DNA from: Spirogloea muscicola
Taxonomy: Eukaryota > Streptophyta > Zygnematophyceae > Spirogloeales > Spirogloeaceae
Assembly (NCBI GenBank): GCA_009602725.1
Contig: WELB01000329.1
Coordinates: forward strand, 81,781 to 108,097
Direction of reading: 5' to 3'
DNA: 26,317 bases
The notes below the pieces were generated by a model, which worked only from the letters and a program-made list of their open reading frames with translations, made no database searches and had not been told where the DNA came from. The position numbers and the translations under genes are program-made. Position 1 is the stretch's first letter. Each line of letters starts with the position of its first letter. Below, piece after piece: positions 60 to 25,436 of the stretch.

Positions 60-133
60 GGCGACGAAGGCGGGCCCGCCTGCAGGAAAGGGCGGGACTG
101 GCGCCGAGGCGGAGGCTCGCGGGGCGCGGAGGA

Positions 134-330
134 AGTGCCCGCCCATTGAGAAGAGGGGCTGGCAAAGCCAACCCAAAAAGGGTGGACAATGTTGAAAGCC
201 AAAGAAAGAAGTGCCGAAAAAGGACTACACCACAACAGGCGAGACGATGCACACGAAGTGGCACTCTCCAATGGGGGCAAGGGCTGCGAAAAGCCAGCCC
301 AACGACAATGTACAAAGCCTACAAGCTCTG
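134..330 (-). repeat. two LINE 3' UTR remnants (hairpin type)
   Basis: Two copies of the dispersed hairpin repeat lie head to tail, both in minus (element-sense) orientation. The first, about 134-250, has the terminal block GCCCATTGAGAAG, a slightly decayed stem (GGGGCTGG..CCAACCC) and a GGAC-AAT-GTTg second arm. The second, about 255-318, has the block GAAGTGGCACTCTCCAATGG and the stem GGGCTG..CAGCCC. Related copies elsewhere in the window are joined to a LINE C-terminus, so these are read as 3'-UTR-only, heavily 5'-truncated insertions. No coding sequence remains. Confidence 0.6.
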
Positions 331-2023: not shown

Positions 2024-2180
2024 GAGAAGTGGCACTCCCAATGGGGGCAAGGGCTGTGTGAAAGAACCAGCCAGCCCGAAAAGAATTGACAAAAATTCGA
2101 AGGGGCCAAAAACGCGAAGCAGCTAAGAATGGCGCGCCCAGTGAGGGTAGGGGCTGGGAAAGCCAGCTCAAAAACTACTG
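2024..2180 (-). repeat. two LINE 3' UTR hairpin copies
   Basis: The copy at about 2025-2101 has the terminal block GAAGTGGCACTCCCAATGGG and a stem with an extended loop (GGGCTG..CCAGCCC). The copy at 2137-2178 has GGGCTGG-GAAAG-CCAGCTC. Both are in minus element orientation. The second is cut off where family B copy B1 begins on the opposite strand. Confidence 0.6.
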
Positions 2181-2879: not shown

Positions 2880-3140
2880 ACATAGCGCTGCTCTTTACCA
2901 AAGGGGGCGGGGGCTGTAAACGAACGTGTGAAAAGCTAGCCCAGAAAGAACGAACAAGGTCCAAAAGGCCCCATAACCACACAGCTATGCACGAGACTAT
3001 AGCGTACGAGAGCTTAGTGACCCCGAGTCAGCCGCAAGTGGGAGTAATGTGCAGCTGGGAAATAGATACCACAACGGAAAGCAGAAGCAGCAGTCAAAGC
3101 GTGGCCTGCCTGCAAGTGCACTGCGTGAGCCTGGGAACGC
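2880..3140 (-). mobile_element. LINE family D, 3' end with hairpin UTR (copy D1)
   Basis: Minus-strand coding remnant from ~3140 to the TAA at 3014-3016, ending HYSHLRLTRGH-stop and preceded by a decayed SQAHAVHLQAG segment like copy D2 (10781-10930). Below the stop come the linker and the hairpin region at ~2965-2899 (GGAC-CTT-GTTC, then a decayed main stem). This is one of the places where the hairpin is physically continuous with a LINE stop codon. Confidence 0.7.
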
Positions 3141-3254
3141 TGCAAGGAAATATTGAGCAGCATGCAGAACTCCTGGGCGAGCGCCCGCCGTCGTTGAAGC
3201 CGGGCAGCTCACCTAGCTGTACCTGACGACGAATGATGGCCAGCCGTGCATCTT

Positions 3255-3320
3255 CCAGACGGGCGGGGGCTGTGAAAGACAGCTCGGAAAGGGAATTGAC
3301 AAGGTCCAAGGGGGCCGCAG
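3255..3320 (-). repeat. LINE 3' UTR hairpin copy with compensatory stem change
   Basis: At 3267-3285 the stem reads GGGCTGT-gaaag-ACAGCTC. The closing pair is T-A instead of the usual G-C, changed on both sides, so pairing is kept. GACAAGGTCC follows at ~3298-3307. No coding sequence is attached. Confidence 0.6.
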
Positions 3321-3874: not shown

Positions 3875-3995
3875 GAGAAGAAGGGCTCGCCCATTGAGAA
3901 TGTGGGCTGGAACAGCCAGCCCAAAAAAGAATGAACAGAGTACAAGAAGAGGGGGGGGGAAGCCAGGCGAAGCCCTAAGGCGAAGCAGCAGAAAA
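3875..3995 (-). repeat. LINE 3' UTR hairpin copy upstream of the hydrolase gene
   Basis: Terminal block GGGCTCGCCCATTGAGAA, perfect stem at 3904-3922 (GGGCTGG-aacag-CCAGCCC), then AAAAAAGAATGAACAGAGTAC and the family C UTR block (AAGCCAGGCGAAGCCCTAAGG). It lies within 200 bp of the presumed hydrolase start and may overlap its promoter. Confidence 0.6.
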
Positions 3996-4075: not shown

Positions 4076-5493
4076 ATGGCCCTGGCCGCGCCNTCCTACA
4101 CGACGCTCTTCCGATCTCGCCGCTCCGCTCCCGCGCGCGGGGCCTCTGCAGCGACGGAGCAGCTGCAGGCCGCGCCGCCCGAGGCCCGGGAGTGGCAGTG
4201 GCGGCACGGCGGGCGCGAGCTGCGCATCCACCACGTCGTGCACGGCGGCGGCGGCAGCAGCCCGGCGGTGGTGCTGCTGCCGGCGCTGTCGGACGTGAGC
4301 ACGGTGGAGGAGTGGGAGGCGGTGGCGCGGGGGCTGGCGGGCTCCGCTGTGGCGCTGGACTGGCCGGGCTTCGGCCTCTCGGACCGCCCGCCGCTGGACT
4401 ACACCGCCGACGCGCTGGAGCAGTTCCTGGCCGACGCCCTGCGCCCCGGCGCCGGCCTGCTGGGTGCCGGCGCTGCCCCCGTGGTGGTCGGCGCGGGCCA
4501 CGCTGCGGCGCTGGCCATCCGCGCCACGGCCAAGGGCCTGCTCAAGCCGCGGGCCATCGTGGCCGTGGCCCCCACCTGGGGCGGCCCGCTGCCCATCGTC
4601 TTCGGCAACAGCCCCAAGATGCAGGGCCGGTGAGAGCTGCGCCGACGCGCCGCCCTGCAGCGGCTTGCATGCAGTAGGCAGAGTGGCCCATTGTTGGTGG
4701 GGGCGCCGCTGACTGTTCCTACTGACCCGAGACGGTGGTCCTTCGCTCCGCGCGGCTTGATCTTCCGACGGTAGCTTGTGATCACCGGTGGCCGACTGGC
4801 AGGCCAGTTCTCTGACCCACTCGTCATCTGGTTTGCAATGCACCTGTGACAGGTATGCACTTCTCCGCAATGCGCTGCGCTTGCCAGGCCTGGGGTGAGA
4901 TGTCCCGCTGCTCCAGTCGACTGTCATGGCGGCCTGCCACTTCCGGGGCCAGCTGCTCGATATGCCCTGTTTCTTGCCTACCACTGAGCACGTCGAAGCT
5001 CTGGGGCACAAGCCCCACAAGGTGGTTACCTGCTTCAGTGGCCCTTCTCATCCACCATGATGTGACACTTGGCAGGTGGGCTTTGTACAACTTTGGTCTG
5101 GCCACGCCCCGCAACGTGGAGAGCCAGTACAGGAGCCACGTGTACGGGAGCAAAACAAATGTGACCCCTGAGCTTATCAGTAAGCGGGTGACTCTGACTC
5201 AACAGCCAGGTGCCCGCTTCGCGCCTGCGGCGTTCATCTCGGGCCGCCTCGACCCAGCTCAGAACCGGGAGGAGTTCCTGCAGCAGGTCGCGAATGTGGG
5301 CGTGCCACTGCTGGTTGTGAGCTCCCGCAACAGCCCGCGCCGGTCCAAGGGGGAGATGGAGGCCCTTCGAGACAGCCTCGGAGTATCCCAATTTTGCGAG
5401 GTCAATGGTGCACTGCTGGCTCATGAGGAATACGCACAGGAGGTCACTGATGCCATTGCCAAGTTCTTGGCGCAATTGCCACCTGCGGCTTGA
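4076..5493 (+). CDS. alpha/beta-hydrolase-fold protein, three exons, first exon damaged by an assembly fault
   Basis: Proposed exons: 4076-4629, 4853-4894, 5076-5493, all GT-AG and in frame; total 338 codons including the adapter-derived ones. The ATG at 4076 (gccATGgcc) was chosen for context. The start is Ala/Arg-rich like a plastid transit peptide but interrupted by an N and adapter sequence. The mature part has the hydrolase layout: VVLLPALSDVSTVEEW, VALDWPGFGLSDRP, then the elbow region VVVGAGHAAALAI, VAPTWGGPLPIVFG, and a C-terminal EVNGALLAHEEY. The nucleophile serine of the usual G-x-S-x-G is absent (Gly-Ala-Gly-His-Ala). As I recall, plant homologues of this group also lack it, so a non-catalytic or unusual role is likely. 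Exon 2 (YALLRNALRLPGLG) is only 42 nt. TGTAA at ~5610 may be the poly(A) signal. Substrate unknown. Confidence 0.8.
4093..4117 (+). other. ambiguous base followed by Illumina adapter sequence (assembly artefact)
   Basis: After the N at 4093, bases 4095-4117 match the 3' end of the standard Illumina TruSeq universal adapter for 23 bases (it ends GACGCTCTTCCGATCT). The forward frames give the familiar adapter peptides YTTLFRS, LHDALPIS and PTRRSSDL, and the reverse frames give SEERRVG and DRKSVV. It lies inside the first exon of the hydrolase gene just after a poly-C run, so real exon sequence is probably missing here. Confidence 0.95.
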
Positions 5494-8767: not shown

Positions 8768-8921
8768 NGCTGGGGGGCGCGGCGTCAGCGTCCGCAGGCG
8801 GGAGGCGTCAGCGTCATGCGTGGGGTAAAGGAATCTGGCGGCGATGGCACCAGGGCTGCGCGGGCGCCTGAGATAAGAGAATGAGAAAGATGTGAGCTCT
8901 CCTCCTCTCTCCTCCTCTCTG

Positions 8922-9030
8922 GCAGATGTCTTAGTCCTAGTCGTTCGCACTCAAGCTCCCTCAGACCTTGTCCATTCTTTTGGGCTGGCCTTTCCCAGCC
9001 ACCAGTCCATCTGGCCGCGCTTTCTCTCTA
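8922..9030 (+). mobile_element. LINE 3' UTR hairpin copy, plus orientation
   Basis: Read in element sense: AGACCTTGTCCATTCTTTTG, then GGGCTGGCCTTTCCCAGCC, then ACCAGTCCATCTGGCCGCGC. Its reverse complement closely matches 10165-10260 and 25286-25395, including the flank GACTAGGACTAAGACATC shared with the last. These three and the partial copy at ~10017-10090 form one young subgroup. It begins ~215 bp upstream of the ArfGAP ATG. Confidence 0.65.
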
Positions 9031-9065
9031 CTGGAGGAGTAGGTGTAGAACTGGACTGGACTGGA

Positions 9066-9250
9066 AGAAGTGGCACTCCCAATGGGGACAAGGGCTGCGA
9101 AAAGCCAGCCCAAAAAGAATTCACAAAGGTTCAGAGGGGCCTAAGAGCGGTGAGCAGCTACAAAGGGGCCTGAGGATGCAATGGTAAAACAGGGGGAGGA
9201 TGGATCACTCAATAAGTACGAGTGAGGAGCCTCACTGGAAGAGTCTTTCG
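9066..9250 (-). mobile_element. LINE fragment: C-terminal LLTRTY end plus complete hairpin UTR
   Basis: Minus-strand coding end LLTRTY-stop at ~9209-9226, then ~80 nt shared with 1838-1930, then GGGCTG..CAGCCC and the terminal block GAAGTGGCACTCCCAATGGG at 9066-9086. Stop codon, linker, hairpin and terminus are in order and unbroken. This is one of the best examples showing that the hairpin is a LINE 3' UTR. Confidence 0.7.
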
Positions 9251-9670
9251 AAGAAAGTGCTCGCCCATTGAGATCAGGGGCTGGAACAACCAGCCCGAAA
9301 TGGAATGAACAGAGTACGAGAAGGGGGCCAGGGGAAGCGCTAAGAAACAAAAACAAAGCAGCTACGAGACACTCAGTAACCCCTGCTAAGCAGCCGCAGA
9401 TCAGAGATGCTGGGCTCCTGGAAGTGGGTCCCCTGGCCAGAGCCAGAGGCAGCAGCGAGGGCTCTGCCGGCACGAAGGTGCAGCGCCCGGGCCATGGACC
9501 TCTGCAGCGAGACGGCCAGGCGCATTCGATACACTTGCGCCAGCGACCCGGCTGCAGGGAAGTCAACCGGCTCCCCATGGAAGCGCCGGGCGATGGTGTG
9601 GCGGGCGAGCTGGGTGAGCAGCTCGAGCCACCGAGCGCCCAGCGCCCCATGTGTGTCGATGGCCAACGGG
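9250..9670 (-). mobile_element. LINE family C, 3' end with hairpin UTR (copy C2)
   Basis: Minus-strand frame 9666-9373 of about 97 codons: ALGARWLELLTQLARH, VYRMRLAVSLQRSMARALHL, then the GRALAAASG tail and ISDLRLLSRGY-stop. The 3' UTR follows without a break: GCGCTTCCCCTGGCCCCCTT, then the perfect stem at 9278-9296 (GGGCTGG-aacaa-CCAGCCC on the plus strand), ending in CAATGGGCGAGCACTTTCTT. It joins copy C3, in opposite orientation, at ~9670. Confidence 0.8.
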
Positions 9671-9865
9671 AAGAACTCGTATTCCAGGAGCCTAGCGTCT
9701 CTAACCTGAGGCTGCTTACCAGGGGTTACTGAGTCATCCGTAGTTTCTTTGTGTGCTTGTTTTCTTAGCGCTTCCCCTGGCCCCCCTCTCGTCCTTTGTT
9801 TGATACTTTTTTGGGCTGGCTTTTCCAGCCCCTATTCTCAATGGACGAGCACTTTCTTCTTCCAA
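9671..9865 (+). mobile_element. LINE family C, 3' end with hairpin UTR (copy C3)
   Basis: Plus-strand coding end FQEPSVSNLRLLTRGY with the stop at 9730-9732. The UTR contains TTAGCGCTTCCCCTGGCCCC, the perfect stem GGGCTGG-ctttt-CCAGCCC at 9813-9831, and the terminus CTCAATGGACGAGCACTTTC. This is the cleanest plus-strand instance of stop, UTR block, hairpin and end. With C2 it forms a tail-outward inverted pair. Confidence 0.8.
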
Positions 9866-10340
9866 AGAAGTGGCTCTCCCAACAGGCAGGCAGGGGCTGG
9901 GAAAGGCCAGCCCCAAACGAATGGACCAAAGGGGGAGCGAGGGCTGTGAAAGTGGCTCTTTTGTATTGGAGAAACTGCTCCTTCAGATGGAAAGGCAATG
10001 GCTGTGAGAAGAGAGAAAGAGGAAGTACGGCCAGATTGACTGGTGGCTGGGAAAGGCCAGCCCAAAAGAATGGACAAAGTCTGAGAGAAAGGGCTCGCCC
10101 ATTGAGGATAGGGGCTGAGATGGTCAGCCCCAAAAGAATGAAGAGCTCACTTCTTTTCTTCTAAAGAGAGAAGCGCGGCCAGATTGACTGGTGGCTGGGA
10201 AAGGCCAGCCCAAAGGAATGGACAAGTTCTGAAGGAGCCGGAGTGCGAACGACACTCACTTCTTTTCTTCTAAAGGGGACGAGGACTGTGAAAAGCCAGT
10301 CCGAGAAGAATAGACAAGGTCCGAGAAGCAAGGGAATCAT
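9866..10340 (-). repeat. cluster of five LINE 3' UTR hairpin copies
   Basis: Minus-orientation copies at about 9866-9935, 10017-10090, 10091-10142, 10165-10240 and 10272-10335. Two carry compensatory stems: 10111-10131 reads GGGGCTGA-gatgg-TCAGCCCC, and 10283-10302 has GGACTG paired with CAGTCC. Those at 10017 and 10165 share the flank GCGGCCAGATTGACTGGTGG. Essentially no coding sequence remains, so these are extreme 5' truncations or recombination products. Confidence 0.65.
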
Positions 10341-10479
10341 AAGTAAGCAAGTACCATGAAGGAGAACCACTTGGAAATCTCTGCTTAATTCCGCACTGTG
10401 TCCCGCAGGCGGGGCGAGCAGGCCGACTTTAATGCCGCTGGCTCGCTAGCAAAAGTGTTCTGCATGGCGCCTGTCTACA

Positions 10480-10665
10480 TGAAGTATACAGCTCCTTCAC
10501 ATTGACAGCAATGGCCATATCCCTCCAACGTTCCATGGCCCACGCCTTGCATCTGCGTGCTGGCCGTGCTCTCGCTGCAGCCTCTGGCTTTCGTCAATGG
10601 GACTGCTTTCCGGCGACTTGTCTTTCTGACTCGCGGCTGCTTTCTGAGCTTACTTTGTGATACTA
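10480..10665 (+). mobile_element. LINE family C-like 3' coding end (copy C4)
   Basis: Plus-strand frame with AMAISLQRSMAHALHLRAG, then GRALAAASGFRQWD, and a decayed terminus SDSRLLSELTL-stop at 10658-10660. The LQRSMAxALHLRAG core is almost identical to copy C2. The UTR is interrupted within ~20 nt by a minus-orientation D-type end. Confidence 0.65.
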
Positions 10666-10674
10666 GTACCCTAC

Positions 10675-10930
10675 ATGGCACTTGCTTTGAAAAGCCAGCC
10701 CAGAAAGAATGGACACGGTCTGATGGGCAACAAGTCGCCACAAGCTCACAGCTGTGCAAGAGACTACAGCGAATGGGAGCTTAGTAATGCCGGGTCAGCA
10801 GCCGCAAGTCCGAGTGACTTGAAGCTGGTAAAGAGGCACCCCGACGAGACCCAGAAGTAGCATCTAAACCACGGCCTGCCCGCAAGTGCACTGCGTGAGC
10901 CTGGGAACAGTGGAAGTAGGTGAAGGCGAT
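10675..10930 (-). mobile_element. LINE family D, 3' end with hairpin UTR (copy D2)
   Basis: Minus-strand coding SQAHAVHLRAGRGLDATSGS, then SHSDLRLLTRHY-stop at 10781-10783. Below the stop are ~60 nt of linker, then GTGTCC and GGGCTGGCTTTTC at ~10722-10684, where the stem is cut by the junction with C4. It shares its coding tail with D1. Confidence 0.7.
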
Positions 10931-10984
10931 GTAGAGGGCAATGGCTGTTATCGGCCAGCCCATGCAAAGAGTGGGGCACATAAA

Positions 10985-11380
10985 ATGGATACGAAGTACG
11001 CTCTTCCGAGGGGCGAAGGCTGGGTAAAGCCAGCCAGAAAGACTGGACAAGGAGGCGAGCGGTGCGCATGAGATGAGAGAGGGGCCAGAGCGAGCCAGTG
11101 CTAGTCTCAGGCGAAAGCTAGTGGACTGCTTCTCTTCTCTTCTCTTCTCCCTCTCTATCTAAGAGAAAGGGGCCCTCCAAGAGGGGGCGAGGGCTGTGAA
11201 CAGCCAGCCCAGGAATAATGGACAAGGTTCAAGGCAAGAGCTCGCCCATAGAGAAGACGGGCTGGTTGGGCAAAGCCACCCCAAGAAGAATGGACAATGT
11301 CCAAAGCCAAAGATAAAAGGACTACACTACAATGGGCCGAAAGGCGCCAAATGCACTTTGCCATGCATGCAAGACACTAC
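10985..11380 (-). repeat. three LINE 3' UTR hairpin copies
   Basis: Copies at about 10998-11060 (GGCTGG-gtaaag-CCAGCC), 11178-11230 (GGGCTG..CAGCCC then GGAC-AAG-GTTC) and 11240-11380 (a decayed first stem but a perfect second hairpin GGAC-AAT-GTCC at 11292-11302). The third runs into a minus-strand C-terminal remnant reading SDLRLLPQGY, whose stop codon has mutated, so stop-linker-hairpin order is again visible. Confidence 0.6.
11128..11165 (+). repeat. pyrimidine microsatellite (TCTTC-rich)
   Basis: A run of CTTCT/TCTTC units followed by CCCTCTCTATCT between two LINE 3' UTR copies. It is a simple repeat with no further feature. Confidence 0.6.
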
Positions 11381-11389
11381 ACGGCGTAC

Positions 11390-11515
11390 GGGAGCTTCGT
11401 AACCCTGGGGCAGCAGCCGCAAGTCGGAGTAACTTGCAGCTGAATCACTGCGAGGTGACCAGCTGGCAAGTTACTCCGACTTGCGACTGCTGACTCGGGC
11501 TCACTAAGCTCGCAT
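11390..11515. repeat. inverted repeat made by two LINE C-terminal ends
   Basis: A perfect 20-bp arm (CGCAAGTCGGAGTAACTTGC from 11419) recurs inverted (GCAAGTTACTCCGACTTGCG, ending ~11485), with a spacer of ~27 nt and weaker homology extending each arm to ~50 bp. Both arms encode the LINE tail ASYSDLRLL, one on each strand, so two 3' coding ends face outward from a shared centre. Confidence 0.75.
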
Positions 11516-11615
11516 TCTGTACAGTCTCTGGCATGCCTGTGTGGACGTCGTTCACCAGTCGTGGGCTGGCGTTTCACAGGCCCCCGCCCCCATCGCGAGG
11601 GCCACTTGGTCTTCC
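11465..11615 (+). mobile_element. LINE family D-like 3' end with hairpin UTR (copy D3)
   Basis: Plus-strand LASYSDLRLLTRAH-stop ending near 11506, then ~50 nt of linker and the hairpin region GGGCTGG-cgttt-CACAGGCCCC, with the terminus CCCCATCGCGAGGGCCACTT near 11612. The main stem is weakened. This is a second plus-strand example of hairpin following a LINE stop. Confidence 0.65.
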
Positions 11616-12089: not shown

Positions 12090-15000
12090 CTGGCCCGCCC
12101 CCCGCCGCCGTCCGCGGCCGCCGCCGCCGCCGCCGCCGTCCGCTGCCCGCTGACTCGCGTGCGCCAGCGCCCCCGCCGGCCCCGACGCCATGCTGGGGGC
12201 TGCTAAGAGCCGAGGCGGCTCGCGCAGCTCTTCGCTTCGGCGCGCCGCTCGCTCTTACGGCACCCGCAGCACGACTGCTGCGTCGAGGGCCGCCACTGCG
12301 TCAGGGGCCACCCTGCCCATCCTCCCAGCGGCCCCTCCAGCTCCTCTCCCTCCCCCTGCTCCAGCGGGTGCGGAGGCCGCCGCGAGCGAGGGTCGCAGCC
12401 CTCAGATTGTGCGCACGCCTGTGGCGACCACGACATCAACGTCGACACCGGAGCCCGAGTTCCTTGGCGTCGGAGTGTCTGCGCCTGTCGAGCAAGCCCA
12501 GCTGCTTGCACATCCAAGCTCGGCCACCTCGGATGCAGACTCCGAAACTCCGAACATGGACCCGCGAGTTGGCATTGTCGTCAGCCCACCACGATCAAGT
12601 GATTCCCCCACCTGGCGGCCTTTGAGTTTGTTGGCTCTGCTCCGTCCCTCTCCCCCCCCAGCTCCACCCTTGCACTCTCCAGTTCATCCCCCAGTGCCCG
12701 CTCCGGAGCCGCCACCGTTGCTCCCTCTACCTCCTCTGTTACCTCTACCTCCGCCGCCGCCTGCGCGGGTTGTGGAAAGCTGTCATCAAGCCGGAAGCCG
12801 CCCTGGACCCGGTCGCCGTCGGCAGGGCCGCTCTTCTCAACAGCGCCCAGCCCGCACTGGCCTCGGAGAAGCCCCAGCCACGCGGGTCCCCTGTCCGGGC
12901 TGCCAGCGCCGTTACCGCCCAAGAGGATTGCCAGTCCATGCTCGATCATGCCAGAACCAACGAAACCGCGAAGAGCAGGCAGCAACGTCGCACCTGCCGG
13001 GCTCAGCCCGTCCTCCACCACCTCCCTCTCCCGAGAGCTGGCACTGGGCAGCAACAGTGGACCTCCTTCCCCTCCTCGTCCCCGACGGGCTCCACAACCT
13101 CCGCCACATTCCCAAGTGGGCACGACGTGGGTGCTGCAAGGTGCTGACGCCCATCCTCTCACGCGTGGAAGCTGACCCTCTGGACGAGGCGGCCTGGGCG
13201 CTGTACCTGCTCTTCCCCAAGCTCGTGCTTGGCCCTCTTCCCTCCTTTGGCGTTGGTGGCCGCAAATGCCTTCAGGACAGATTGGCTCGCTTCGCCAGCG
13301 GCAAGTGGGAGGAGCTGGCTCAGCAGCGTGCAGCAGCCGCTCGGGTCGCGCTCTCAGAACGACGTGCACGTGGAGGCACCCGCAACCAGCCCTCTCAACA
13401 GTCCATGATTGGCAACCTAGCGCGTGCAAGACGCTTTGGCAGAGCAGGAGAGCTCTCTCGAGCCGCTCAGGCCCTCTGCCCCGACCCCTTGGCAGCAAAC
13501 AATGAGGCCACTGAAGCCACCTTGCGCCAGCTGCATCCTCCTCCTCAGCACCCTCTTGAGCCCTGGGTTGGCGAGCTCCCCACTCCTCTTGAACTTTCAG
13601 CAGATGCGCTCCGCACGGCCCTCACCAAAGCCCCCCGAATGGTGTCTGGAGGCCCTTCTGGATGGCTCTTCGAGCACCTACGGGACATCTTCCAAAATGG
13701 AGACGAAAGAAGCTTCTCTCTGCTCCTCTCCACCTGCCGGCACATCACCAGAGCCACCATCCCCCCCCGCATCGCCGACGCTCTCAACTCCAGCCACCTG
13801 CTGGCCCTGGCCAAGCCGTCAGGTGGTGTCAGGCCCATCGCCATGACAGAAGTAATAATGCGGCTGGTGACCAAGGCTTTGTGCGGCGAGCTAAAGTCCC
13901 AGCTGTCCACCCATTTTGCACCCCACCAATTTGGTGCTGGCATGTCCTGCGGGGCAGAGGCCCTCGTCCACGGGATCCGCGCAGCGCTGGATGTCAACCC
14001 ATCACACATGGTCCTTGGATTGGACATAGCCAATGCATTCAACACTGTGGAGCGCAACGCCATCATGGAGGAGCTGCGTGATCACTTCCCCTCCTTAATC
14101 CCCTATTTCCTCATGGCCTATGGCCGGCCAGGGCGGCTGCTGTGGCGTTCGGAGGAGTCTTGGACGACCTTATGGTCCACAACTGGCACACGCCAGGGAG
14201 ATCCCCTCAGCCCCATACTTTTCGCCTTGGCACATTCCCGAGCACTACGGCGCACCCAAAGCCTGCACCCGAACCTCCTCTTCCCCTCCTATGCAGACGA
14301 CACACATATCGTCGGCCCACCGTCAGAAGTCATGGCGGCTTATCCCTTGCTCGTACACGAACTGAGCACAATGGGCCTGCGGGTCTGCCCCACCAAGAAC
14401 GTGGCATGGTCACCACGCCCCCTCCCCACCAACCTCCAGCTCCCACCAGGCTGCCAGACCCCTGCCAATGGGCTGGCTGTTCTCAAAGTTCCCCTTGGCA
14501 CACCATCCCACATTGCGGAGGACTTGCGTGAACGCCTGCAGCAACACCTTGCCCCCCTTCCCTCCCTTCCCCTCCTCGGAGATCCGCAGCTGGCGCTGGC
14601 CATCCTTACTCGCTGCATCGGTCAACGAGCTGGCTACCTGCAGCGGACAGTCGCCCCAACGGACATGGTGGGCGAGCTGTACAAGGAGTTCGACACCTCC
14701 CTCCGGCAAACCCTGGCTTCCCTGATTCAACACCCATCCTTCCCCTCACCTTCATCCTCCCTGCAGGCATCCCTTCCCACACGAATGGGCGGCCTGGGCT
14801 GCCGGTCACTTGAACAGACGGCGCAGGCAGCCTTTCTCGGTTGCTGGCACCAGGTTGCCTCCCTTCTTCCCTTGCGCTTCCCTTGCCTGGCCGGCCCTGC
14901 AGCCGAGGTGGAGGAAGGCTCCTTGGCATTCCAAGTACAACTGAGGAGCATCCGGGAGTCAGCACTCGGCTCCTTCCCGTCCCTACAACCCCTCCTCACC

Positions 15001-16065
15001 CCCTTCTCAGCGCTTGCTCAAGCACCAGACAAAGCGGCACAGGCCAGACTCGTTGCGGCAGTTGAGGACGAGCGTCGCAAGGCGTTGAGGACGATGCCGG
15101 ATATCAAGACCAATCCAAGGAGTCTGGCACGTCTCACATCGCTCGCAACGCCTGGGGCAACGGATTGGCTCACCACACACGCAATCCACAACGCTTTCAA
15201 AATCAGCCCTGAAGCATTCCGGACGCTTCTCCAGCTGTTCCTGGGCCTGCCCCCGACCTGCCTGATTGGAGTAACTCAGTGTGAGTGTGGCTTCCGTACG
15301 GAGGGCGGAGACCTAGCCACCCACATGCTGCGGTGTCCCACAGGCCCTGAGGTGGTGGGCGTCCACAATCTCCTACGGGACGCCCTGGCGGGCTTGATGC
15401 GCGACGCCGGCTACCGCGCCATCGTTGAAGTGAGCAATGTAATGCCCATCACCACGGATTCCCAGGGAGGCCATCACCGTCGCACCCTGGACATTGTGGG
15501 TGTACAACCTGGCGGAGGCCCACGAGCTTTGGTTGATGTGGTGGTGACTGAGGCATACAAGAGTTCCGCTTCCACACACATTGCTGGCCACGCAGTGGGA
15601 GGTGCTGAGCAGAAAAAGCTCCGACACTACTCAGACTACCCCCGCAGTGACCACCTCCTCCCGGCCGCAATCGACACTTTCGGCTGCTTGGGTCCTCGCT
15701 TCCATACCCTACTCGAGAACATAGCGAGTCTGGGATATGCACGACGCGAGGATATGCTCCCAGCCCAGATGGGTATGCCGGCAGCCTATCTGTCATTTCT
15801 GCGACGTCGAGTGTCAACCTGTCTGCAACGAGCTCAGGCGTATGCTCTGCATCAGAAAGCTGGTCGAGCCTTAGCTGCTGGCACAAGAGCTAGTCAATTG
15901 CCGTCCGGTATTCGAGCGTCAGCTAGCGAGCTCTATGTGCTGACTCGTGGTTACTGAGCGGGTCAGCTTAGCAGCAGGTGACGTACATTTGTCCAATGTG
16001 CTTGCCTTTGTACTTGGCCACACATGGCCTCCCCATCTCTTAATATACACGCATTTTCTTGCCCG
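12090..16065 (+). mobile_element. near-complete family A RLE-LINE element
   Basis: The ORF is preceded by at most ~100 bp of GC-rich leader with a CCG run (12105-12165) that begins where copy B2 ends, so the 5' boundary is uncertain. The 3' UTR (15958-~16065) keeps the family A block ATGTGCTTGCCTTTGTACTT, the hairpin GGCCA-caca-TGGCC and a terminus near ACACGCATTTTCTT, without a poly(A) tail. I could not define a target-site duplication. The element ends ~50 bp before the ATG of the next gene, in the same orientation. Confidence 0.8.
12190..15957 (+). CDS. intact RLE-type non-LTR retrotransposon polyprotein, 1255 aa (family A)
   Basis: Single uninterrupted ORF. Residues 1-230 are low-complexity Ser/Ala/Pro. 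A CCHC zinc finger follows (C235, C238, H250, C254), then a linker and the reverse transcriptase: KPSGGVRPIAM (~543), GLDIANAFNTV with D612, TGTRQGDPLSPILF (~666-678) and SYADDTHIVG with catalytic D703/D704. After the thumb region comes a second zinc motif (C1031, C1033, H1045, C1049) and a restriction-like endonuclease (D1101 in TLDIVG, D1116 in ALVDVVVTEAY, then EQKKLRHYSDY). It ends in the shared tail and LTRGY. This order, with the endonuclease C-terminal to RT and no APE domain, is that of the R2/NeSL-like group, which copies its RNA at a nicked target by target-primed reverse transcription. All catalytic residues seem intact, so it may be active. The clade needs a phylogeny. Confidence 0.93.
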   Translation: MLGAAKSRGGSRSSSLRRAARSYGTRSTTAASRAATASGATLPILPAAPPAPLPPPAPAGAEAAASEGRSPQIVRTPVATTTSTSTPEPEFLGVGVSAPVEQAQLLAHPSSATSDADSETPNMDPRVGIVVSPPRSSDSPTWRPLSLLALLRPSPPPAPPLHSPVHPPVPAPEPPPLLPLPPLLPLPPPPPARVVESCHQAGSRPGPGRRRQGRSSQQRPARTGLGEAPATRVPCPGCQRRYRPRGLPVHARSCQNQRNREEQAATSHLPGSARPPPPPSPESWHWAATVDLLPLLVPDGLHNLRHIPKWARRGCCKVLTPILSRVEADPLDEAAWALYLLFPKLVLGPLPSFGVGGRKCLQDRLARFASGKWEELAQQRAAAARVALSERRARGGTRNQPSQQSMIGNLARARRFGRAGELSRAAQALCPDPLAANNEATEATLRQLHPPPQHPLEPWVGELPTPLELSADALRTALTKAPRMVSGGPSGWLFEHLRDIFQNGDERSFSLLLSTCRHITRATIPPRIADALNSSHLLALAKPSGGVRPIAMTEVIMRLVTKALCGELKSQLSTHFAPHQFGAGMSCGAEALVHGIRAALDVNPSHMVLGLDIANAFNTVERNAIMEELRDHFPSLIPYFLMAYGRPGRLLWRSEESWTTLWSTTGTRQGDPLSPILFALAHSRALRRTQSLHPNLLFPSYADDTHIVGPPSEVMAAYPLLVHELSTMGLRVCPTKNVAWSPRPLPTNLQLPPGCQTPANGLAVLKVPLGTPSHIAEDLRERLQQHLAPLPSLPLLGDPQLALAILTRCIGQRAGYLQRTVAPTDMVGELYKEFDTSLRQTLASLIQHPSFPSPSSSLQASLPTRMGGLGCRSLEQTAQAAFLGCWHQVASLLPLRFPCLAGPAAEVEEGSLAFQVQLRSIRESALGSFPSLQPLLTPFSALAQAPDKAAQARLVAAVEDERRKALRTMPDIKTNPRSLARLTSLATPGATDWLTTHAIHNAFKISPEAFRTLLQLFLGLPPTCLIGVTQCECGFRTEGGDLATHMLRCPTGPEVVGVHNLLRDALAGLMRDAGYRAIVEVSNVMPITTDSQGGHHRRTLDIVGVQPGGGPRALVDVVVTEAYKSSASTHIAGHAVGGAEQKKLRHYSDYPRSDHLLPAAIDTFGCLGPRFHTLLENIASLGYARREDMLPAQMGMPAAYLSFLRRRVSTCLQRAQAYALHQKAGRALAAGTRASQLPSGIRASASELYVLTRGY

Positions 16066-24870: not shown

Positions 24871-24924
24871 AGCTCTCTCTTCTTCTTCGCTCTAGCTGCG
24901 CACATACTGAGGTGTGTTGAAGAA

Positions 24925-25125
24925 AGTGCTCGCCCATAGAGAAGAGGTGCTGGCAAAGCGAGCCCAAAATAGAAGGGACAATGTCCGAAGCCAAAGGAAG
25001 AGGTGCCGAAAAAGAAGAAGTGAAAAAGAGAAACAGGAGAGAGAGAACAGGGACTAAACTACCAAAGACGACAACGCACTAGGGAAGCTCAGTACCCGCG
25101 AGTGAGCAACATCAGGTGAAGGGGG
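24925..25125 (-). mobile_element. LINE fragment: LLTRGY end plus hairpin UTR
   Basis: Minus-strand coding end LMLLTRGY-stop at 25089. Below it lies an A-rich linker (plus-strand AAAAAGAAGAAG), then a perfect second hairpin GGAC-AAT-GTCC at 24976-24986 and a decayed main stem, ending in GTGCTCGCCCATAGAGAAG at 24926-24950. The UTR type matches 134-250 and 11240-11380. Confidence 0.65.
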
Positions 25126-25285: not shown

Positions 25286-25436
25286 GGAGAAAGCGCGGCC
25301 AGATTGACTGGTGGCTGGGAAAGGCCAGCCCAAAGGAATGGACAAGGTCTGATGGAGCCGGAGTGCAAAGGACTAGGACTAAGACATCAGCCAGGGAACG
25401 CTCAGTAACCTCTAGTCAGGAGAAGCAAGTCTGAGT
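25286..25436 (-). mobile_element. LINE fragment: SDLLLLTRGY end plus hairpin UTR
   Basis: Minus-strand SDLLLLTRGY-stop with the TGA at 25402-25404, then ~70 nt of UTR, GGAC-AAG-GTCT and GGCTGG-gaaag-GCCAGCC at ~25313-25331, and the terminus GAAAGCGCGGCCAGATTGAC. It is nearly identical in the UTR to 10165-10260 and to the inverse of 8922-9030, so it is probably a recent copy. Confidence 0.7.

Follow-up and report, generated by a model that had tools for sequence, protein, structure and literature searches.

A probable 3'-terminal stem-loop shared by several R2-group LINE families of Spirogloea muscicola

A 26,317-nt stretch of the Spirogloea muscicola genome, referred to here as the window, contains LINE 3' ends that repeatedly show the palindrome GGGCTGG/CCAGCCC. 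The original prediction took three copies changed on both arms as proof of a folded RNA, placed a second hairpin beside it, and suggested that an R2-type reverse transcriptase (RT) recognizes the structure. Is this stem-loop, named H1, an RNA signal, and what evidence speaks for it? H1 is probably a real and functional stem-loop, but the double-change evidence was invalid and the history of changes among its copies provides better evidence.

Copies of the module and the LINE families that carry it

All the quoted stems were found at their positions: GGGCTGG/CCAGCCC at 3904-3922, 9278-9296, and 9813-9831, GGGGCTGA/TCAGCCCC at 10111-10131, GGACTG/CAGTCC at 10283-10302, and GGGCTGT/ACAGCTC at 3267-3285. 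In the last of these, the plus strand has G-T at one of the seven pairs, which becomes A-C on the sense strand. A profile search identified 22 copies of the surrounding module in the window at E < 0.001, with the sense orientation on the minus strand in 20 and on the plus strand in two. LINE reading frames were compared with the hairpins, for example the frame 9373-9831 on the minus strand and the frame 9226-9732 on the plus strand, which is followed by the hairpin 9813-9831. Since the sense orientation is mostly the minus strand, the original prediction had viewed the antisense of most copies; the H1 stem is palindromic and, thus, looks similar on either strand. Twenty-three rows from the window entered the final alignment. 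The module copies are listed below.

9787..9862, plus (sense): family C' LINE 3'-end module, after the open frame 9226-9732 (+) ending ..LTRGY*
9246..9321, minus: family C 3'-end module, H1 9278-9296, after the open frame 9373-9831 (-); 7/7 pairs
3878..3946, minus: family C-like 3'-end module, H1 3904-3922; 7/7 pairs
10083..10142, minus: C-like module, H1 10111-10131; double change (inner pair A-T) and an extra outer G-C
10266..10326, minus: module, H1 10283-10302; double change GGACTG/CAGTCC
3251..3311, minus: module, H1 3267-3285 (GGGCTGT/ACAGCTC); 6/7 pairs on the sense strand
10162..10235, minus: family E 3'-end module; 6/7 pairs
10017..10087, minus: family E 3'-end module; alignment row
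8958..9029, plus (sense): family E 3'-end module; profile match and alignment row
25287..25355, minus: family E 3'-end module; an LTRGY* coding remnant (read by eye) precedes it
128..198, minus: family F module; stem GGGTTGG/CCAGCCC, with a U.G pair in sense
24916..24991, minus: F-like module with GGAC-AAT-GTCC at 24976-24986; preceded in sense by an LTRGY* remnant (by eye)
11233..11306, minus: F-like module with GGAC-AAT-GTCC at 11292-11302; alignment row
9062..9135, minus: family G module; alignment row
255..320, minus: family G module; alignment row
2024..2100, minus: family G module with additional loop bases; alignment row
2125..2174, minus: 3'-end module copy; alignment row
2889..2967, minus: 3'-end module copy with a loop insertion; alignment row
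9861..9926, minus: 3'-end module copy; 7/7 pairs
11162..11234, minus: 3'-end module copy; alignment row
10999..11052, minus: 3'-end module copy; alignment row
10933..10970, minus: weak 3'-end module copy; 5/7 pairs
11544..11606, plus: weak 3'-end module copy; 5/7 pairs
10670..10723, minus: module remnant with the 3' arm mostly gone, after the open frame 10781-11158 (-); outside the 23 window rows

The copy at 9787..9862 consists of the upstream arm of an outer helix (see below), H1 at 9813-9831, and a tail ending ..GAGCACTTTCTTC; genomic matches of 9700-9870 stop at about 9853-9867. Within 9246-9862, this short family C' 3' end, which starts at about 9680 on the plus strand, adjoins the minus-strand family C copy. 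By eye, the open frame 9226-9732 is mostly antisense to that copy.

The stem was expected in LINE 3' UTRs, near the 3' end and common to several families, and this held for families C, C', E, and F, which have the same module with differing upstream sequence. Coding remnants ending TRGY* precede the C and C' modules and, as judged by eye, the E and F modules; several LINE-remnant reading frames in the window end ..TRGY*. Families G and H are known from the module alone. In family C, the 3' UTR comprises the 123 nt after the stop codon. All 12 non-window copies with a readable 3' UTR have H1 (one with a U.G pair), and three of them lie in open frames of 1271-1350 aa; a 13th match ran past the locus edge and is outside this count. 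The distance from H1 to the end is 28 nt in 11 of the 12, those with a complete tail, and the end reads ..GAGCACTTTCTTC followed by a variable count of TTC units. In general, the module ends ..CTTTCTTC plus a variable number of additional TTC units and, thus, carries a short 3'-terminal repeat.

The module is abundant in the searched genome (153 Mb, 471 contigs). The exact word CCTTGTCCATTC, from its upstream part, has 3,691 matches, compared to 12 for the word read backwards. The word TCAATGGGCGAGCAC, of families C/C'/F, has 3,209 compared to 1, and a family E 3'-end word has 1,850 compared to 0. Loci were fetched from the first 100 matches listed per word (60, 79, and 20 loci, nearly all on contig C1), together with 20 further regions picked for copy density; the sets partly overlap. 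In a search with the C-terminal peptide of family C, all 150 scored candidates matched and 19 lay in open frames of at least 1,200 aa, suggesting that family C is large and young.

Two further families end differently. H1 was missing in all 20 fetched 3' UTRs of families A/B, half of which (10/20) belong to copies with stop-free open frames of at least 1267 aa. Full-coding copies lacking the stem, which were to count against the original prediction, thus exist in families A/B and were not seen among the readable copies of family C. H1 is, therefore, not universal, and, since families A/B have another short hairpin, GGCC..GGCC, at a comparable place, the clade uses more than one kind of 3' end. 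The window holds one complete element of this kind, together with many remnants of related LINEs.

12154..15957, plus: family A LINE, complete, with a 1267-aa open frame; RT, C-terminal CCHC, and endonuclease-like motif; without H1
15958..16060, plus: family A 3' UTR, with GGCCA-CACA-TGGCC in place of H1

The family A and family C proteins share 44% identity across 1043 aligned positions. Nine full-length family A copies, including the one in the window, have 100% rounded identity across the whole query, suggesting recent activity.

The proposed link to R2-type elements was supported by the RT. With a profile of families A and C, the closest RTs among solved structures, the only comparison set used, were three R2 sequences (2.9e-13 to 1.8e-11), followed by the next best at 0.00098 and LINE-1 at 0.0019. 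Family A by itself was less clear: it scored best with a group II intron RT (0.00029), slightly ahead of R2 (0.00071), and in NCBIfam it matched a group II model without reaching the cut-off. At the N terminus, PF13913 was found at E 0.00039 and 20.5 bits, under its cut-off of 27, and C2H2-like motifs are visible in both proteins. A Pfam scan of family A showed no endonuclease domain. After the RT, three sequences have conserved CxC..H..C and later D..D residues, which may represent the CCHC and restriction-like endonuclease motif. The model of the C-terminal region was of too low quality to be usable (pLDDT 43), and its best fold match was R2Tg at E 0.14. A tRNA search found none, and a search of viral contigs gave two pattern matches, neither of which is a relative.

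Pairing, covariation, and neighboring helices

The alignment was built from 348 profile hits, a set that predates the fetching of the 20 copy-dense regions. The 72 hits lacking the H1 columns were dropped, leaving 276 that cover H1, 262 of them distinct, and 237 after trimming. The 262 copies come from the window and the fetched genome parts; L001 and L031 were excluded because they are window copies.

Among the 262 copies, double changes that keep a pair intact occur just three times in the seven stem pairs, and these are the three on which the original prediction relied. Shuffling the 3' letters within pairs gave a mean of 3.35 double changes, and 1370 of 2000 shuffles reached three. The three double changes are, therefore, no proof of structure. 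For the pair that holds T-A in 3267-3285, an A was already common on the 3' side, since 54/262 copies have G/A there. Six of the seven pairs are standard in 74-98% of the copies; the outermost is standard in just 60% because 95 copies, mostly of family E, have G/A. One-sided changes gave U.G and A-C equally often (28 each) when the family F change was left out. Where many copies have decayed, a handful of double changes can thus mimic proof of structure.

Covariation was assessed against a phylogenetic null with an R-scape-like script written for this analysis, using 237 rows and 60 null alignments. The seven stem pairs had E values of 471-1053 over 1891 pairs tested, and the best of all 1891 column pairs had 1.07; nothing was significant anywhere in the alignment. 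An outcome of this kind was to speak against the structure. The test was low-powered, since the stem core hardly varies between families. A set of 67 representatives (70 clusters minus window:2889-2967, L070:69-159, and L076:53-131, which have large insertions) gave a similar result, with 70.4% of cells paired compared to 70.1% with shuffled partners and 35-56% when slid. Cells changed on both sides numbered 17 (three in H1 and 14 in the outer helix, eight of these at one pair) compared to 14.3 in shuffles.

The second hairpin, GGAC-AAT-GTCC, is perfect at 11292-11302 and 24976-24986, as proposed, but it was rejected as a general feature. It pairs in 66.8% of cells across the 67 representatives, and its covariation is not above shuffles. 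It is absent from family C, in which the site reads GTACTCTGTTC, and by eye family E mostly has AGACCTTGTCC.

In families C, C', and F, the flanks of H1 could pair with each other, either UUGUYCAUU with AAUGGGCGA or CUCGUCC with GGGCGAG (upstream flank with downstream flank). In the 111 C/F-type rows, five pairs of this outer helix are 98-100% standard and the other five are 55-95% standard. Out of 500 shuffles, 3 for C, 1 for C'1, 9 for C'2, and 36 for F reached the energy of the sense flank duplex. For E, G, and H, it was reached by 166-378 of 500, indicating that the outer helix is absent there. The outer helix, therefore, likely closes over H1 in families C, C', and F only, with less support in F than in C and C', and lies outside any structure common to all the families. 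It showed no covariation. The energy cannot decide the strand, since for the antisense duplexes of C, C'1, and C'2 few shuffles did as well either (2, 6, and 15 of 500, compared to 199 for F). Folding of the 73-nt ends gave a similar picture: C and C' surpass their shuffles on the sense strand (z -3.4 to -4.9) and about equally on the antisense strand (z -3.8 to -6.0), F does so less on the sense strand (-2.1), and E, G, and H do not stand out from shuffled sequence.

Constraint on the stem core

Most LINE copies are dead on arrival. Changes in a single copy are, therefore, nearly neutral, and changes common to several copies date from lineages that were still jumping. Changes were counted on a tree of the 237 rows, with the stem core defined as five pairs (10 columns). 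The ratio of changes common to at least three copies to all others was 1:81 in the core, 144:358 in the flanks, and 19:84 in the loop (Fisher p of about 5e-10 for core vs flanks and about 8e-5 for core vs loop). Loci anchored by words outside H1, of which 143 of 159 gave a row, had ratios of 1:31, 79:155, and 17:36 at the same threshold (p 1e-4 and 2e-3, respectively). The count was repeated with three seeds and with sharing by 2, 3, or 5 copies as the threshold; core vs flank p was at most 6e-7 with all rows and at most 1.1e-3 with anchored loci. At the two-copy threshold, the core had five shared changes with all rows or six with anchored loci, most of them pair-breaking (p 5e-11 to 9e-11 with all rows and 1e-3 with anchored loci against the flanks). 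The C/F subset alone showed no significant difference between core (1:17) and flanks (25:112) at p 0.31, and p was 0.03 against the loop.

The core does mutate. Changes not common to three copies amount to 8.1 per column compared to 12.3 in the flanks, so that only inherited changes are missing, and all five core pairs are kept in 217/262 copies. The near-absence of shared core changes compared to flanks and loop suggests that the stem is needed in transposing lineages. The stem is, thus, kept in jumping lineages and freely lost in dead copies. Thousands of copies separate inherited from non-inherited changes in this manner and make required bases visible without covariation. Of the candidate structure, a strongly constrained stem in transposing lineages is retained, and the covariation and the second hairpin are not.

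The constraint alone fits a folded signal or a sequence signal alike. The arms could be conserved as primary sequence for the LINE protein or a host factor, with their complementarity incidental to binding. Core letters that are near-invariant across families and the absence of covariation would be expected from this, but loop length and letters vary while the arms stay complementary, and families A/B have a different palindrome at a comparable place. Also, the sole core change common to at least three copies, C to T in column 29, which is the family F change, preserves pairing on the sense strand (C-G to U.G; it would be A-C on the other strand), though it is one event. We consider this explanation unlikely.

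A further explanation, which appears less probable still, is that H1 is a signal for 3'-end formation by cleavage or termination, of the kind found in histone mRNAs, with RT recognition elsewhere. The nearly fixed short distance from H1 to the element end, 28 nt in family C, speaks for it. Against it, no Rfam family was found at gathering score in the whole window, and a relaxed threshold over 8900-11400 gave just two chance-level microRNA hits; the histone 3' stem-loop is an Rfam family, and histone mRNAs end only a few nucleotides beyond it. Least probable of all is that H1 has no function and its apparent conservation comes from young copies and a search profile that contains the stem: every row, including the anchored set, required a match to this profile, but loci picked by words outside H1 agree and unshared core changes are nearly as frequent per column as those in the flanks.

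Insertion behavior, a candidate mechanism, and known systems

Seventeen of 72 short copies have at least 7 nt common to both flanks compared to 2.3 expected (maximum 7 in 200 shuffles), suggesting that the short pieces are true insertions. Truncation within 98-134 nt upstream of the 3' word was seen in 94/141 C-type, 72/96 E-type, and 31/32 G-type copies, counts that include some subfamily divergence and deliberately sampled dense regions. The 5' ends of these 141, 96, and 32 copies are spread over the whole stretch with no pile-up at H1. RT pausing at H1, raised by early counts near the H1 base (4 of about 38 copies in family C and 4/22 in family E), was rejected.

Ninety copies extend no more than 36 nt upstream of the 3' word and were classed as short; the 3'-end word of another copy lies at most 24 nt before the start in the same orientation in 21 of them and in the opposite orientation in one. 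As a control, random 24-mers of larger loci hold a 3'-end word in 280 of 20,000. Stricter tail words gave 5/101 nested copies but overlooked visible tails, and the shorter words were, therefore, used. New copies thus often land in older tails. In L103-L182 (set D) and L183-L202 (set E), insertions down to about 25-35 nt, made up of the last element bases only, were also seen; some are flanked by target duplications, and they could escape the usual repeat annotation.

The explanation that we favor, with moderate confidence, is that H1 is a 3'-terminal stem-loop recognized by the LINE's own protein in target-primed reverse transcription. On the observed side are the position of H1 near a nearly fixed 3' end, its presence in several families, and the frozen stem core in transposing lineages, along with target duplications, same-orientation insertion into older tails, and the R2-like RT. 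The sense RNA would end with GGGCUGG-loop-CCAGCCC and a tail of about 28 nt ending ..CUUUCUUC, and the LINE protein would bind this folded 3' end. Copying would begin at the short UUC tail, on a nicked target that is frequently an older copy's tail, and would mostly abort early and leave short pieces. H1 would have to fold in the cell and be bound itself, and protein recognition would be the source of the constraint.

More tentatively, a single 3'-end cassette may serve at least four R2-group LINE families as an interchangeable RT entry handle, a broader proposal that we regard as possible and rather doubtful. The cassette would consist of H1 and CTTTCTTC, with a G.U-rich sense-strand outer helix in some families. 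Its stem would be read by shape and sequence, and its tail would act as copying start and preferred landing site, seeding thousands of nested insertions, some of about 25-35 nt. If such a cassette is common to the families, it would be a compact substrate for studies of how R2-group enzymes choose RNA.

On the best reading, H1 belongs to a known kind of structure, the stringent-type LINE 3' stem-loop, and is carried in this case by R2-group LINEs. The LINE 3' stem-loop experiments found are from animals: ZfL2 requires its cognate stem-loop for retrotransposition and its protein binds this stem-loop, and the cognate loop decided protein binding in ZfL2-2 (PMC4176376). As in eel UnaL2 and zebrafish ZfL2-1 and ZfL2-2, the stem-loop lies near the 3' end, a short terminal repeat is present, and 3' ends are common to elements. 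In contrast to UnaL2 and ZfL2, the RT is R2-like and the Pfam scan of family A showed no endonuclease domain, and, in contrast to the decisive loop of ZfL2-2 (PMC4176376), the stem is frozen here and the loop is variable. A 3' UTR requirement is also cited for R2Bm and R2Dm (PMC4176376). Our elements resemble R2 in the closest RT domain (A and C profile) and in the presumed CCHC and endonuclease-like motifs after it. They differ in having copies on many contigs with unrelated flanks rather than at one rDNA site and in a shared module of about 70 nt without covariation. The 28S rDNA-site insertion of R2 proper was not found, as flanks vary among copies on many contigs; since the copies are dispersed, these elements are not R2 proper.

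Zepp and Zepp-like LINEs of green algae form arrays mostly of truncated 3' ends by nested insertion into existing copies (PMC8226300, PMC3446292). The 21/90 short copies with a start in the tail of a like-oriented copy resemble this. Zepp is described there as L1-type with one cluster per chromosome (PMC8226300, PMC3446292), whereas the elements studied here also have dispersed copies and an R2-like RT. In Chlamydomonas, RandI/Dualen LINEs and SINEX elements offer a green-algal likeness, compared by description only, in which LINE 3' ends are common to other elements (PMC3747384). A partial literature search found no report of 3' stem-loops of R2-group LINEs in green algae.

Some minor observations concern the surroundings of these elements. 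A tandem duplication at 1455-1792, with a period of 187, holds the family B C-terminus and 3' UTR. At 4093-4117, an N followed by an adapter-like stretch, presumably from an Illumina adapter, lies within GC-rich sequence and is probably an assembly or library artefact. The window ends in TTTAGGG telomere repeats, and, at L070 (C1:1289518-1289728), a family E 3' end directly adjoins TTTAGGG telomere-like repeats.
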